DNA of 64,000 nt from Mycobacterium sp. (GTDB lineage Bacteria; Actinomycetota; Actinomycetes; Mycobacteriales; Mycobacteriaceae), in the NCBI RefSeq assembly GCF_025965855.1, contig NZ_JAOPWB010000192.1, forward strand, positions 1 through 64,000, written 5' to 3'. A program made the translations under genes and the position numbers. The notes beneath the pieces were generated by a model that did not search any database, was not told the DNA's origin, and saw nothing but the letters and a program-made list of their open reading frames with translations. Of the stretch, positions 39,827 through 43,195 are shown in pieces (positions within the stretch are counted from its first letter, which is position 1; each line of letters begins with the position of its first letter).

Positions 39827-41272
39827 ATTGAGCCTCAACTGAGTCTCGAGCCGGACGCCGGCCGGGCGAACAAACTGGCTTCGAAGGTTGCCCGCCACAT
39901 CGAGGCGGATATCGTTCGCCGCGGCTGGACCATCGGCGAATCGCTCGGCTCCGAACAGGCTCTGCAACAACGCTTTCGCGTGAGTCGATCGGTACTGCGG
40001 GAGGCCGTTCGCCTCGTCGAACACCACCAGGTCGCCCGGATGCGCCGCGGACCGGGCGGCGGCTTGCTGATCTGCGAGCCGGATGCCGGCCCCGCGACCC
40101 GTGCCGTGGTGATCTACCTCGAGTATCTGGGCACGACGCTGGTCGACCTGTTGAACGCGCGCCTGGTGCTCGAGCCCCTAGCGGCGTCCCTGGCGGCGGA
40201 ACGGATCGACGAAGCCGGCATCGACCGGTTGCGGGCGGTGTTGCGGGCGCAGGAGCACTGGCGGCCGGGTATGCCGGCGCCGCGCGACGAGTTCCACATC
40301 GCGCTCGCGGAGCAGTCGAAAAGCCCGGTCCTGCAGCTGTTCATCGACATCCTGATGCGGCTCACCACGCGATACGCCCTGCAGTCGCGGGCCGACTCGG
40401 CGACCGAGGCCATCGAGGCGATCGATCACATGCACCACGACCACTCCGGGATCGTCGCCGCCGTCACCGCCGGCGACGCGGCGCGGGCCAGGACGCTCAG
40501 CGAACGACACGTGGAAGCGGTGACCGCCTGGCTGCAGCGGCATTACCCCGGCGGGGGGAGCCGGGCGCGCGGGCCGCGCCGGCTCGACGCTGACGTACCC
40601 CACGGCAAACTGGCCGAGATGCTGGCGGCCACCATCGGCGACGAGATCGCCGCCGACGGCTGGCAGGTCGGCTCGGTCTTCGGAACGGAGACGGCGCTGC
40701 TGGAGCGCTACCGCGTGAGTCGCGCCGTGTTCCGGGAATCAGTGCGGCTGCTCGAATATCACTCGGTCGCGCAAATGCGTCGCGGGCCCGGCGGTGGGCT
40801 GATCGTCACCAAACCCCACGCCGATGCCAGCATCGACACCATCGCCCTGTACCTGCAGTACCGCAAGCCGACGCGGGAAGACTTGCGCTGCGTCCGCGAC
40901 GCCATCGAGATCGACAACGTCGCCAGAGTCGTCAAGCGGCGAACCGAGTCGCAGGTGGCGGCGTTCCTGGCAACCCATCCCGGCACGCAGGAGGGCGACG
41001 TGCGCAAGGCCGTCGCCGAGGAGGTCCGGTTCCACCTCGGCTTGGCGCAACTGGCCGGCAACGCGCTGCTGGACCTTTTCCTGCGGATCATCATCGAGCT
41101 GTTTCGCCGGCACTGGTCCAGCACCGCGCAAACCGAGCCGACCTGGGCCGACGCCGTCGCCGTGGAGCACGCACACCTGCGGATTCTGCAGGCGATCGAG
41201 GCCGGCGACGACAGCCTCGCCCGCTACCGCATCCGTCGGCACCTGGACGCCGCGGCCTCCTGGTGGCTGTAG
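39827..41272 (+). CDS. Tandem FadR/GntR-type regulator (two wHTH-FCD units), probable non-canonical ATT start
   Basis: Two homologous units: FRVSRSVLREAVRLVEHHQVARMRRGPGGGLLI and YRVSRAVFRESVRLLEYHSVAQMRRGPGGGLIV. Frame open from the thiolase stop at 39805; no ATG/GTG/TTG until GTG 39980, which is inside the first wHTH. Confidence 0.82.
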   Translation: MEPQLSLEPDAGRANKLASKVARHIEADIVRRGWTIGESLGSEQALQQRFRVSRSVLREAVRLVEHHQVARMRRGPGGGLLICEPDAGPATRAVVIYLEYLGTTLVDLLNARLVLEPLAASLAAERIDEAGIDRLRAVLRAQEHWRPGMPAPRDEFHIALAEQSKSPVLQLFIDILMRLTTRYALQSRADSATEAIEAIDHMHHDHSGIVAAVTAGDAARARTLSERHVEAVTAWLQRHYPGGGSRARGPRRLDADVPHGKLAEMLAATIGDEIAADGWQVGSVFGTETALLERYRVSRAVFRESVRLLEYHSVAQMRRGPGGGLIVTKPHADASIDTIALYLQYRKPTREDLRCVRDAIEIDNVARVVKRRTESQVAAFLATHPGTQEGDVRKAVAEEVRFHLGLAQLAGNALLDLFLRIIIELFRRHWSSTAQTEPTWADAVAVEHAHLRILQAIEAGDDSLARYRIRRHLDAAASWWL

Positions 41273-41379
41273 GGCCCCGGGCCCGCCTCGATGTGATGCG
41301 TTCGTGCGCATACCAAAGGCCCTTCGGGGGTATGGGGAGGGGGACAACGGATGGCCGGTCCAGCAGGGGGTTGGCACTT

Positions 41380-42384
41380 GTGATCGAAAGCGAGAGCGCG
41401 AGGGTGACGGGGGGTTTGGGGGGGACGGGAACCGGCCAATCGGGTTTCGTTCATTCCGCGCTGCTCTACCGGTCGCGGTGGGAGTACCTGGACTTCGTGG
41501 TTCGCTTCGTCGTCGACGGGTTGACGCGGGGCGAGGCGGTTCTGGTGGCGGTCCCGGGCGACAAGCTGGCCTTGCTGCGTGACGCGTTGCCCGGCTCCGG
41601 CGGCGGATTCCCGGCGGAGCTGCGGATGGCCGACATCGCCGAGATCGGCCGCAACCCGAGCCGGTTCATGGCCATGGAGGGTTCCTTCGTCGACGAGCAC
41701 CCGGGTCGGCGGGTGCGCATCGTGAGCCAGCTCGCCTGGCCGGGACGCACCGACGATGAAATCGTCGCCTGCGTCGAACACGAGGCGCTGGTCAACGGGG
41801 CCCTCGACGGATACCCCGCAACCGCGTTGTGCCTTTACGACGCGAGCCTGCTGGACGACGACGTGCTGGCGGATGCCCGTGCGACGCACCCCCTGCTGTG
41901 GAGCTGCGGTGCGCTGCACCGCAGCGCCGAATATGCGCCCGACGACGTCCTGGACCGCTGCAACCGACCGCTCGCCCCCAAACCCGGGGCCGTCACGTAC
42001 ATGGTCAGGAAGTCCGCGGACCTTCGCCCCGCCCGTTCGTTCGCCGTCAACTACGCCGGCTGGGTGGGAATGTCCCAGGATGGCATCGAGGATCTGCAAC
42101 TGATCGCAACCGAGCTCGCCACCAACAGCTTGATGTATACCGACGGAGCTTGCCGACTGGCCTTCTGGCGGCAAGACGAGCATCTGGTCTGTGAGGCGCG
42201 CGACAGCGGGCGGCTGGCCGACCCGCTGGTGGGACGCCTGGACCCGGGCCCGAGCGGCCCCGCCAGTCGCGGGCTGTTCCTGGTCAACGCCATATCGGAC
42301 TTGGTGCGCACACACACCACGCCGGCCGGGACGACGATCCAGGCCTACCTGCGGGTTGACGCGTCGGCTGGCCCGAACGGATAG
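41380..42384 (+). CDS. MEDS-domain anti-sigma/RsbA-like regulatory protein with HATPase domain
   Basis: N-terminal MEDS-like (HSALLYRSRWEYLDFVVRFVVDGLTRGEAVLVAVP); C-terminal GHKL-like (LQLIATELATNSLMYTDG...EARDSGRLADPL...RGLFLVNAISD). Confidence 0.8.
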   Translation: MIESESARVTGGLGGTGTGQSGFVHSALLYRSRWEYLDFVVRFVVDGLTRGEAVLVAVPGDKLALLRDALPGSGGGFPAELRMADIAEIGRNPSRFMAMEGSFVDEHPGRRVRIVSQLAWPGRTDDEIVACVEHEALVNGALDGYPATALCLYDASLLDDDVLADARATHPLLWSCGALHRSAEYAPDDVLDRCNRPLAPKPGAVTYMVRKSADLRPARSFAVNYAGWVGMSQDGIEDLQLIATELATNSLMYTDGACRLAFWRQDEHLVCEARDSGRLADPLVGRLDPGPSGPASRGLFLVNAISDLVRTHTTPAGTTIQAYLRVDASAGPNG

Positions 42385-42531
42385 GGGAAATCGCGCCGGA
42401 TCGGTGGCCGCGAAGTCGTCGGGCGTTGCTTCGCACCGGATGCTTGTCGGCATCGACCACGAAAGCATCTGTCCGGCAAGGCTTTACCGTTCCGCGTGAA
42501 ATGGATTTGCATTGCCCGCGCGCGGCGTCTA

Positions 42532-42591
42532 ATGTTGGCGCTCGTGCGTCTTCTTCAGCGTGCCGTAGCCAGCACCCGCAGCGGGGTCTGA
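42532..42591 (+). CDS. Putative leucine leader peptide MLALVRLLQRAVASTRSGV
   Basis: 19-aa ORF with tandem rare CTT CTT Leu codons; stop lies inside the first of several competing hairpins before the LeuA-domain gene; alternative GTG start at 42544. Confidence 0.55.
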   Translation: MLALVRLLQRAVASTRSGV

Positions 42592-42664
42592 TCCCAGACC
42601 GACCCCCCGCTGTGGGTCGGACGCTACTACCGTCGGTCGCTCCTGCTGATCAGAGAAGACCGAC
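42579..42664 (+). promoter_or_regulatory. Candidate attenuator: mutually exclusive hairpins
   Basis: CAGCGGGG(42579-86)/CCCCGCTG(42605-12) with nested GGTCTG/CAGACC; competing CCGACCC(42599-605)/GGGTCGG(42614-20); GTCGGTC(42632-38)/GACCGAC(42658-64) enclosing the SD-like AGAGAAG. Confidence 0.55.
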
Positions 42665-42667
42665 ACC

Positions 42668-43195
42668 GTGCCTCTTTCCAAATCACTTTCCATCTCTCTT
42701 TCCGGGCCTGCCTCGTCATTGGCGCGCGAGTGCCCCGCGGCCTCCTGGTTCGGCCACCACTTCGGCGCCTTGTTGCCGCGCGGTCTGCGGGAGGAGGCCG
42801 ACGCCATGTCGTGGGAGGGTTTCGTCGCCACCTATGGCCACGCGGCCGGCCCGCTGCGGCTGGGGCACTGGGCCTGCACCGACACCGAGCGGCCCGCCGG
42901 GCGGCTCGGTCCGCAGGCCCGTAACTTTCGGGCCATGATCGCCGTCGGCGATCACATCGGCACGTCGACCGCCGCCGCCAGCGGTCCGATCGCCGCTCTC
43001 ACCGCGATGCTGCACGAGCGCGGGATAACGGTGGAGACATTGCGGTTTCACCAGGTGCGCTCGGGCGCGGTGACGGTCACGTTTATCCGCGGCAGCGACG
43101 GGGTTCGCGCCGAGTGGGCGATGGGCCTCTCGGAGGATCCGACCCAGTCGGCGCTGCGCGCGGTGATCTCGTGCGCCAACCGGCTGGTGGCCTGA
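42668..43195 (+). CDS. Stand-alone LeuA allosteric (dimerisation) domain protein
   Basis: RNFRAMIAVGDHIGTSTAAASGPIAALTAMLHERGITVETLRFHQVRSGAVTVTFI resembles the 2-isopropylmalate synthase C-terminal regulatory domain; no catalytic barrel. Confidence 0.75.
   Translation: MPLSKSLSISLSGPASSLARECPAASWFGHHFGALLPRGLREEADAMSWEGFVATYGHAAGPLRLGHWACTDTERPAGRLGPQARNFRAMIAVGDHIGTSTAAASGPIAALTAMLHERGITVETLRFHQVRSGAVTVTFIRGSDGVRAEWAMGLSEDPTQSALRAVISCANRLVA

Follow-up and report, generated by a model that had tools for sequence, protein, structure and literature searches.

The window analysed here, a stretch of 64,000 nucleotides of a mycobacterial contig, contains a locus at which a promoter, a short leader ORF and a structured RNA leader precede a gene encoding a protein of 175 aa (42668..43195; this gene and all the features described below lie on the forward strand). 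On profile searches and structure modelling, the protein corresponds to the regulatory (dimerisation) domain of LeuA, diverged and standing alone, as had been proposed from the sequence. Taken singly, it stays sub-threshold against PF08502 (E = 6e-4, 20.2 bits versus a gathering cut-off of 24.9), and 38 of 62 orthologues match this family at E <= 0.01, the best of them at 2.3e-6; likewise, a PDB search with the single 175-aa sequence returned no LeuA match, and profile search alone recovered LeuA. A profile comparison with LeuA by hhalign gave 97.0% at E 8.9e-11. The AlphaFold2 model, built from the 62 orthologues (pLDDT 90.1, pTM 0.85), gave unambiguous Foldseek results, with Mycobacterium tuberculosis LeuA as the top matches (3fig/1sr9, E 1e-9) and the LeuA regulatory-domain fold recognized in 3fig_B at E 1.1e-9 and a TMq of 0.69; the next match was the isoleucine-binding domain of LiCMS.

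The modelled protein has the same fold as the M. tuberculosis LeuA regulatory domain (PDB 3FIG, 1SR9; PF08502), together with a remnant of the preceding W-F-Y subdomain, and keeps the GP helix start and the T-x-S-LRAV helix start. Unlike M. tuberculosis LeuA, it has no catalytic barrel, and the lid loop (HAMSAGDDAQ in LeuA, where it closes over leucine) is 4 residues shorter in the profile comparison. In M. abscessus LeuA the substitution A555V, located in this loop, relieves feedback and raises leucine (PMC11057210); with the loop that harbors the feedback-relieving substitution being the one shortened, the sequence suggests an orphan domain that may sense leucine poorly. The original prediction of a leucine sensor separated from its enzyme is therefore borne out as regards the separate domain, while the sensing of leucine becomes uncertain. 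Ligand choice does vary within the fold, since the regulatory domain of the citramalate synthase LiCMS (PDB 3F6G/3F6H), which, unlike the stand-alone domain, belongs to a full enzyme, binds isoleucine. A protein that acts as an independent ligand-binding domain, with no contact with LeuA, is a serious possibility, somewhat short of an even chance: identity to LeuA over the fold match is low (20-22%), the lid loop is shortened and the family has invariant residues of its own (E123, F127, Q129, C169), but LeuA regulatory domains are dimeric in solved structures and the control element described below is common to leuA. The apparent M. abscessus orthologue is annotated as 2-isopropylmalate synthase or as hypothetical, despite the absent catalytic domain.

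The stand-alone gene was found, by matches at E < 1e-30, in 129 of the 149 mycobacterial genomes searched, the remaining matches being LeuA itself or a broken copy, and it occurs also in sister genera. Among the 118 loci collected, 108 are distinct, and the leader is present and near-invariant in 107 of these 108 orthologous upstream regions, so that the leader ORF and hairpins expected to be conserved in orthologues are indeed conserved; the sole orthologue without the leader (L096, genome G061) has instead a coding frame that apparently runs up to the gene. In the 31 loci with longer flanks the neighbours are P450 and TetR genes (29), an SDR gene (27) and the upstream neighbour (21), a gene order that we take to match M. 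tuberculosis Rv3056-Rv3061c (dinP, SDR, TetR, cyp136, GntR, fadE22) and that serves as a lead only. The upstream neighbour in the window (41263-42384) appears by eye to be a MEDS plus ATPase anti-sigma-type protein. In one genome (G106), whose LeuA carries an insertion like that of the M. tuberculosis complex, the stand-alone gene is lost; the promoter/leader remnant (L236:1429-1468) bears an internal deletion fusing the first bases of the leader to the switch strand (see below) and the Shine-Dalgarno (SD) sequence, adjoining the P450 gene. LeuA regulatory domains with insertions are found in several species (genomes G023, G029, G065, G106, G119), and a tie between such insertions and loss of the orphan gene was rejected, since G023 and G119 have both insertion and gene. 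A mobile-element origin was also rejected, there being no phage match; one copy of the orphan domain, broken and unannotated, resides on an M. intracellulare plasmid (NZ_CP012886.2 319705-320099; L239:1501-1895).

The leader peptide ORF (42544..42591) runs from GTG to TGA and encodes MRLLQRAVASTRSGV. It had been read as starting at ATG 42532 and ending at the TGA at 42591, with a tandem CTT CTT at 42550-42555; the stop and the tandem codons are there, but ATG 42532 is not conserved and falls inside the -10 element TAATGT (42530..42535), and the conserved start is that at the position of GTG 42544, which is GTG in 95 loci and ATG in 7. In 102 of 107 loci (2.4% of shuffles) the in-frame leader start has a TANNNT motif 7-9 nt on its 5' side, the hexamer TAATGT itself being common to only 15 of the 102. 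The -35 element is TTGCAT (42507..42512); a TTGCR-type -35, with at least four of the five positions of TTG[CA][AG], is separated from the -10 by 17 or 18 nt in 102/102 loci, compared with 19% of shuffles in a control in which spacings of 15-19 were allowed. The leaders have eight lengths, of 42-63 nt, all multiples of three; in the length count this holds by construction, and it was confirmed by a frame-blind search, in which the promoter was fixed first and start and stop then proved to share one frame in 102/102 loci. Spacing between the leader stop and the gene is not frame-bound. Transcription is predicted to start at or next to GTG 42544, which would make the uORF leaderless; with the start so predicted, none of the outcomes named at the outset as refuting the original proposal was encountered. 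An RTG where transcription begins is an accepted mark of leaderless mycobacterial ORFs (PMC4633059), and ribosome profiling of M. abscessus has revealed a ribosome-protected uORF upstream of MAB_3424c (PMC4974804), which we infer below to be the orthologue of the stand-alone gene.

The codons of the leader are strongly biased. A GUA valine codon is present in 105/105 leaders, tandem leucines in 45 and a single leucine in 51; GTA accounts for 206 of 224 leader valine codons versus 1.9% of valine codons in genes, and CTT for 49% of leader leucine codons versus 4.6% in genes, seven genes of the source genome serving as the reference for codon usage. The emphasis originally put on the tandem CTT thus needs shifting: CTT CTT is present and CTT is rare, but two adjacent leucines are confined to 45 of the 105 leaders and the invariant codon is GUA. 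The first GUA, which lies in an RNA stem (stem A, below), is unchanged even where the 3' partner strand is unable to pair with it in full (35 loci), suggesting selection on the codon itself. Leucine codons are sparse in the rapid growers (MPRRLVVATRSGV), the leaders of sister genera carry LVV or LLV, and the leader of leuA in the same genus, whose core is homologous, encodes MQRVLLLGRRDGV.

Four nucleotides upstream of the -35 element lies an AT-rich block of the WhiB7 type, AAAT (42499..42502). In the 102 loci the A/T content is 69-89% at positions -8 to -5 from the -35 and mostly 20-50% around the block, and AA[AT] is found at the block in 71% of loci versus 10% further upstream. The published WhiB7 promoter motif is AT-rich and located 3 bp upstream of the -35 (PMC10727445); the block that marks this regulon is present here, with a gap of 4 nt as the -35 is scored versus the 3 bp published. 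In M. abscessus, a WhiB7 ChIP peak lies upstream of MAB_3424c, a gene annotated as 2-isopropylmalate synthase, whose expression is about 2-fold WhiB7-dependent (PMC10727445), and the matching gene of M. chelonae, BB28_RS17050, is up 3.2-fold in a lysogen with high whiB7 (PMC8191103). We infer that MAB_3424c is the M. abscessus orthologue of the stand-alone gene because the ChIP peak, at 3,470,985, is close to the position of the stand-alone gene in a related genome (G093, 3.473 Mb), and the full leuA is elsewhere, at 0.32 Mb in the latter and as MAB_0337c in M. abscessus (PMC11057210). From the sequence, the promoter of the stand-alone gene looks to be under the control of WhiB7, hence of antibiotic stress. 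The ChIP peak, the WhiB7-dependent expression of MAB_3424c and the induction in M. chelonae, together with the genus-wide AT block and the lack of conservation of the leader leucine codons, would also suit a general sensor of translation stress, in which the rare-codon leader reports any slowing of the ribosome, by antibiotics or starvation, in step with WhiB7 and with no specificity for leucine or valine. We consider such a sensor not very likely, as the variable part of the leader keeps branched-chain codons throughout, those of the sister genera included, and the RNA element also occurs at leuA, which has LLL in its leader.

The leader transcript is predicted to fold with -58.4 kcal/mol (z = -3.63), a stability reached by none of 200 shuffles. 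Its elements, from 5' to 3', are the 5' strand of a base stem (42544..42560), where CTT CTT is located and whose partner is the SD region (42639-42666); the 5' strand of stem A, GUAGC (42565..42569; GUAGUAGC in most relatives), which holds the GUA at 42565-42567 and pairs with GCUAC at 42623..42627; the 5' strand of stem B (42574..42586), forming 13 bp with the 3' strand at 42605..42617; strand 2 of a pseudoknot, GACCGAC (42597..42603); the switch strand, or strand 5, GUCGGUC (42632..42638), which can pair either with strand 2, giving the pseudoknot, or with 42658-42664, giving hairpin R; and, at 42652..42664, the SD-like AGAGAAG with the 3' strand GACCGAC of hairpin R. The hairpin strings of the original prediction are all at their positions, namely CAGCGGGG/CCCCGCTG with the stop in the loop, CCGACCC/GGGTCGG and, around the SD, GTCGGTC/GACCGAC, the last being hairpin R. 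The stop-containing hairpin is real and extends beyond the strings quoted, to the 13 bp of stem B (ACCCGCAGCGGGG/CCCCGCUGUGGGU). Mutually exclusive helices are likewise upheld as alternative structures, but the conserved competitor is GACCGAC/GUCGGUC and not CCGACCC/GGGTCGG, which has no covariation and whose outer pair is broken in 31 of 44 sequences.

Across 63 orthologues the paired cells amount to 97.8% for stem A, 99.4% for stem B, 99.1% for the crossing helix and 94.8% for hairpin R; the switch strand is invariant in 63/63 and hairpin R has no double changes. RNAalifold by itself detected no covariation, as the core varies too little. When the orphan leaders were aligned with their leuA paralogues (alignment A3), stem B was paired in 92.8% and the crossing helix in 100% of cells; two adjacent stem B pairs are fixed compensatory differences between the orphan and leuA groups, double changes affect a further stem B pair in two sequences, and the crossing helix has one compensatory pair (A-U to G-C). 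The covariation score, 0.230 against 0.151 in shuffles, was reached by 0/500 shuffles and depends on a few fixed differences between the paralogues, since the core helices are near-invariant within the orphan family. The base stem, in which CTTCTT stands opposite AGAGAAG (duplexfold about -18 kcal/mol in the source species), is paired in 78% of cells and its covariation score was reached by 4/500 shuffles, a weaker support than that of stem B and the crossing helix; by inspection, rapid growers use another base pairing, GUGCCG/CGGCAC. Cognate and non-cognate pairings of 5' ends with SD regions did not differ within clades, and between clades only the combination of rapid-grower 5' end and slow-grower 3' end was weaker in pairing, which is weak evidence. 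The energies of hairpin R (-13.9 kcal/mol) and of the pseudoknot helix (-10.8 kcal/mol) are comparable, that of stems A and B together being -36.5 kcal/mol; nested minimum free energy folding retains hairpin R in every ribosome state modelled, which counts against a switch.

A search of the window against Rfam at gathering thresholds returned no match, so no catalogued RNA family is recognized at that threshold. The relevant relative is instead the LEU element described upstream of leuA in Actinobacteria by Seliverstov et al. in 2005, in a study covering leuA and one transposase sequence only (PMC1262725). The two share a uORF with leucine codons, a pseudoknot of two crossing helices, a base stem that joins leader codons to the SD, and the core GGGGTCTGAYCMAGACCG, and one covariance model (R1) finds both, scoring 80.5 bits at the orphan locus and 78.2 at leuA of the same genome; both source-genome elements belong to the R1 seed alignment, and the real test is therefore given by the compensatory pairs and the independent matches. 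R1 detects a single element for each copy of leuA and another for each stand-alone gene, usually two in genomes with the gene, and in 20 of the 20 genomes without it there are no elements beyond the leuA copies. Exceptions noticed among gene-bearing genomes were G049, with a truncated match in a fragmented assembly, G053 (leuA absent from the assembly) and G061, mentioned above for its missing leader. Sister-genus genomes outside the seed also have the element ahead of the orphan gene. A genome of another family of the same order (G161) contains two LEU-type elements (C54:14989-15055 and C219:2586-2649).

On these comparisons, the leader RNA is a diverged second copy, a paralogue, of the actinobacterial LEU element, and the resemblance to leuA regulation in Actinobacteria that had been noted at the outset acquires a concrete basis, with a conserved leader peptide and alternative RNA structures preceding a gene for the LeuA regulatory domain only. 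As the element precedes this domain and not leuA, which is located elsewhere with an element of its own, we class it as a relative of the LEU element whose target is new. It differs from the copy at leuA also by the extra, GUA-holding stem A, the extra SD hairpin R, the WhiB7-type promoter and a leucine run often down to one codon. In a full-text search of open-licence papers a second LEU element was not described, the matches being the 2005 article and one on other RNAs. Its authors favoured a protein as the regulator and named ML1624 (PMC1262725), and core bases near-invariant beyond the needs of pairing would fit an RNA that mainly binds a protein or other trans factor, with the ORF secondary; this we judge quite improbable given the strict upkeep of the frame, the register between start codon and promoter, the ribosome-protected uORF ahead of MAB_3424c and the strong rare-codon bias.

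Two other mycobacterial leaders invite comparison. The whiB7 attenuator belongs to the same stress network and also has a uORF with ribosome stalling as the signal; it uses a terminator and antiterminator, and by description its sequence is unrelated to that of the orphan-gene leader. The attenuator of M. tuberculosis ilvB1NC is alike in having a branched-chain uORF with LVV-type regulatory codons (LVVI, including GUA), but differs by a U-tract-bearing intrinsic terminator (PMC13236596), for which the orphan-gene leader has no counterpart. Transcription attenuation, intrinsic or Rho-dependent, in place of control of translation initiation would follow the mode of the ilvB1 uORF (PMC13236596) and could make use of the long GC hairpin after the leader, yet direct reading found no U-run after any hairpin of the leader region, i.e., no classical attenuator terminator, and the SD and start region is paired both by hairpin R, the conserved 3' helix, and by the base stem; attenuation of this kind seems hardly probable here.

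We favor, with moderate confidence that extends to the mechanism, a reading in which a WhiB7-type sigma-A promoter and a switch formed by the LEU-element paralogue control the stand-alone LeuA-domain gene. The mechanism that suits the data best would be a switch between pseudoknot and SD hairpin set by a stalled ribosome, and its logic, effector amino acid and protein partner would be as follows. With transcription predicted to begin at or beside GTG 42544, ribosomes would load straight onto the leader ORF. When charged leucine or valine tRNA is plentiful, the ribosome would arrive at the UGA in hairpin B and cover strand 2, leaving strand 5 to pair with the SD-adjacent GACCGAC, and translation of the gene would be poor. 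A stall on the leucine (CUU/CUC) or rare valine (GUA) codons would keep both the base stem and stem A from closing, so that hairpin B and the pseudoknot between strands 2 and 5 could form co-transcriptionally, trapping strand 5 and freeing the SD. Geometry probably makes stem A incompatible with the pseudoknot, since strand 5 starts a few bases past the end of stem A, and this would explain why regulatory codons lie in stem A. Against this reading stand the sparse leucine codons of rapid growers, the genome that has the gene without the leader (G061) and, for leuA itself, leader-codon mutations that were inconsistent with classical attenuation according to the Streptomyces coelicolor work as cited in PMC1262725. 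As a partner with a poor response to leucine, the product would most likely associate with LeuA regulatory domains, or it would bind another branched-chain ligand; in either case it would serve to adjust leucine synthesis during translation stress.

These observations extend the LEU element, an unsolved leader RNA known for leuA, to a second target, and the comparison of the orphan and leuA paralogues supports the LEU pseudoknot. They also single out a protein that apparently belongs to the WhiB7 antibiotic-stress response as a possible determinant of leucine feedback. How the LEU element works and why the WhiB7 regulon includes amino-acid genes both become testable with simple reporters. An unlikely extension is that the free, leucine-blind LeuA domain is a decoy that joins LeuA and lifts its leucine feedback. 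WhiB7 and the duplicated LEU pseudoknot, the latter reading the charging of valine and leucine tRNA, would together switch it on; if so, translation stress would be wired directly to the output of branched-chain amino acids.
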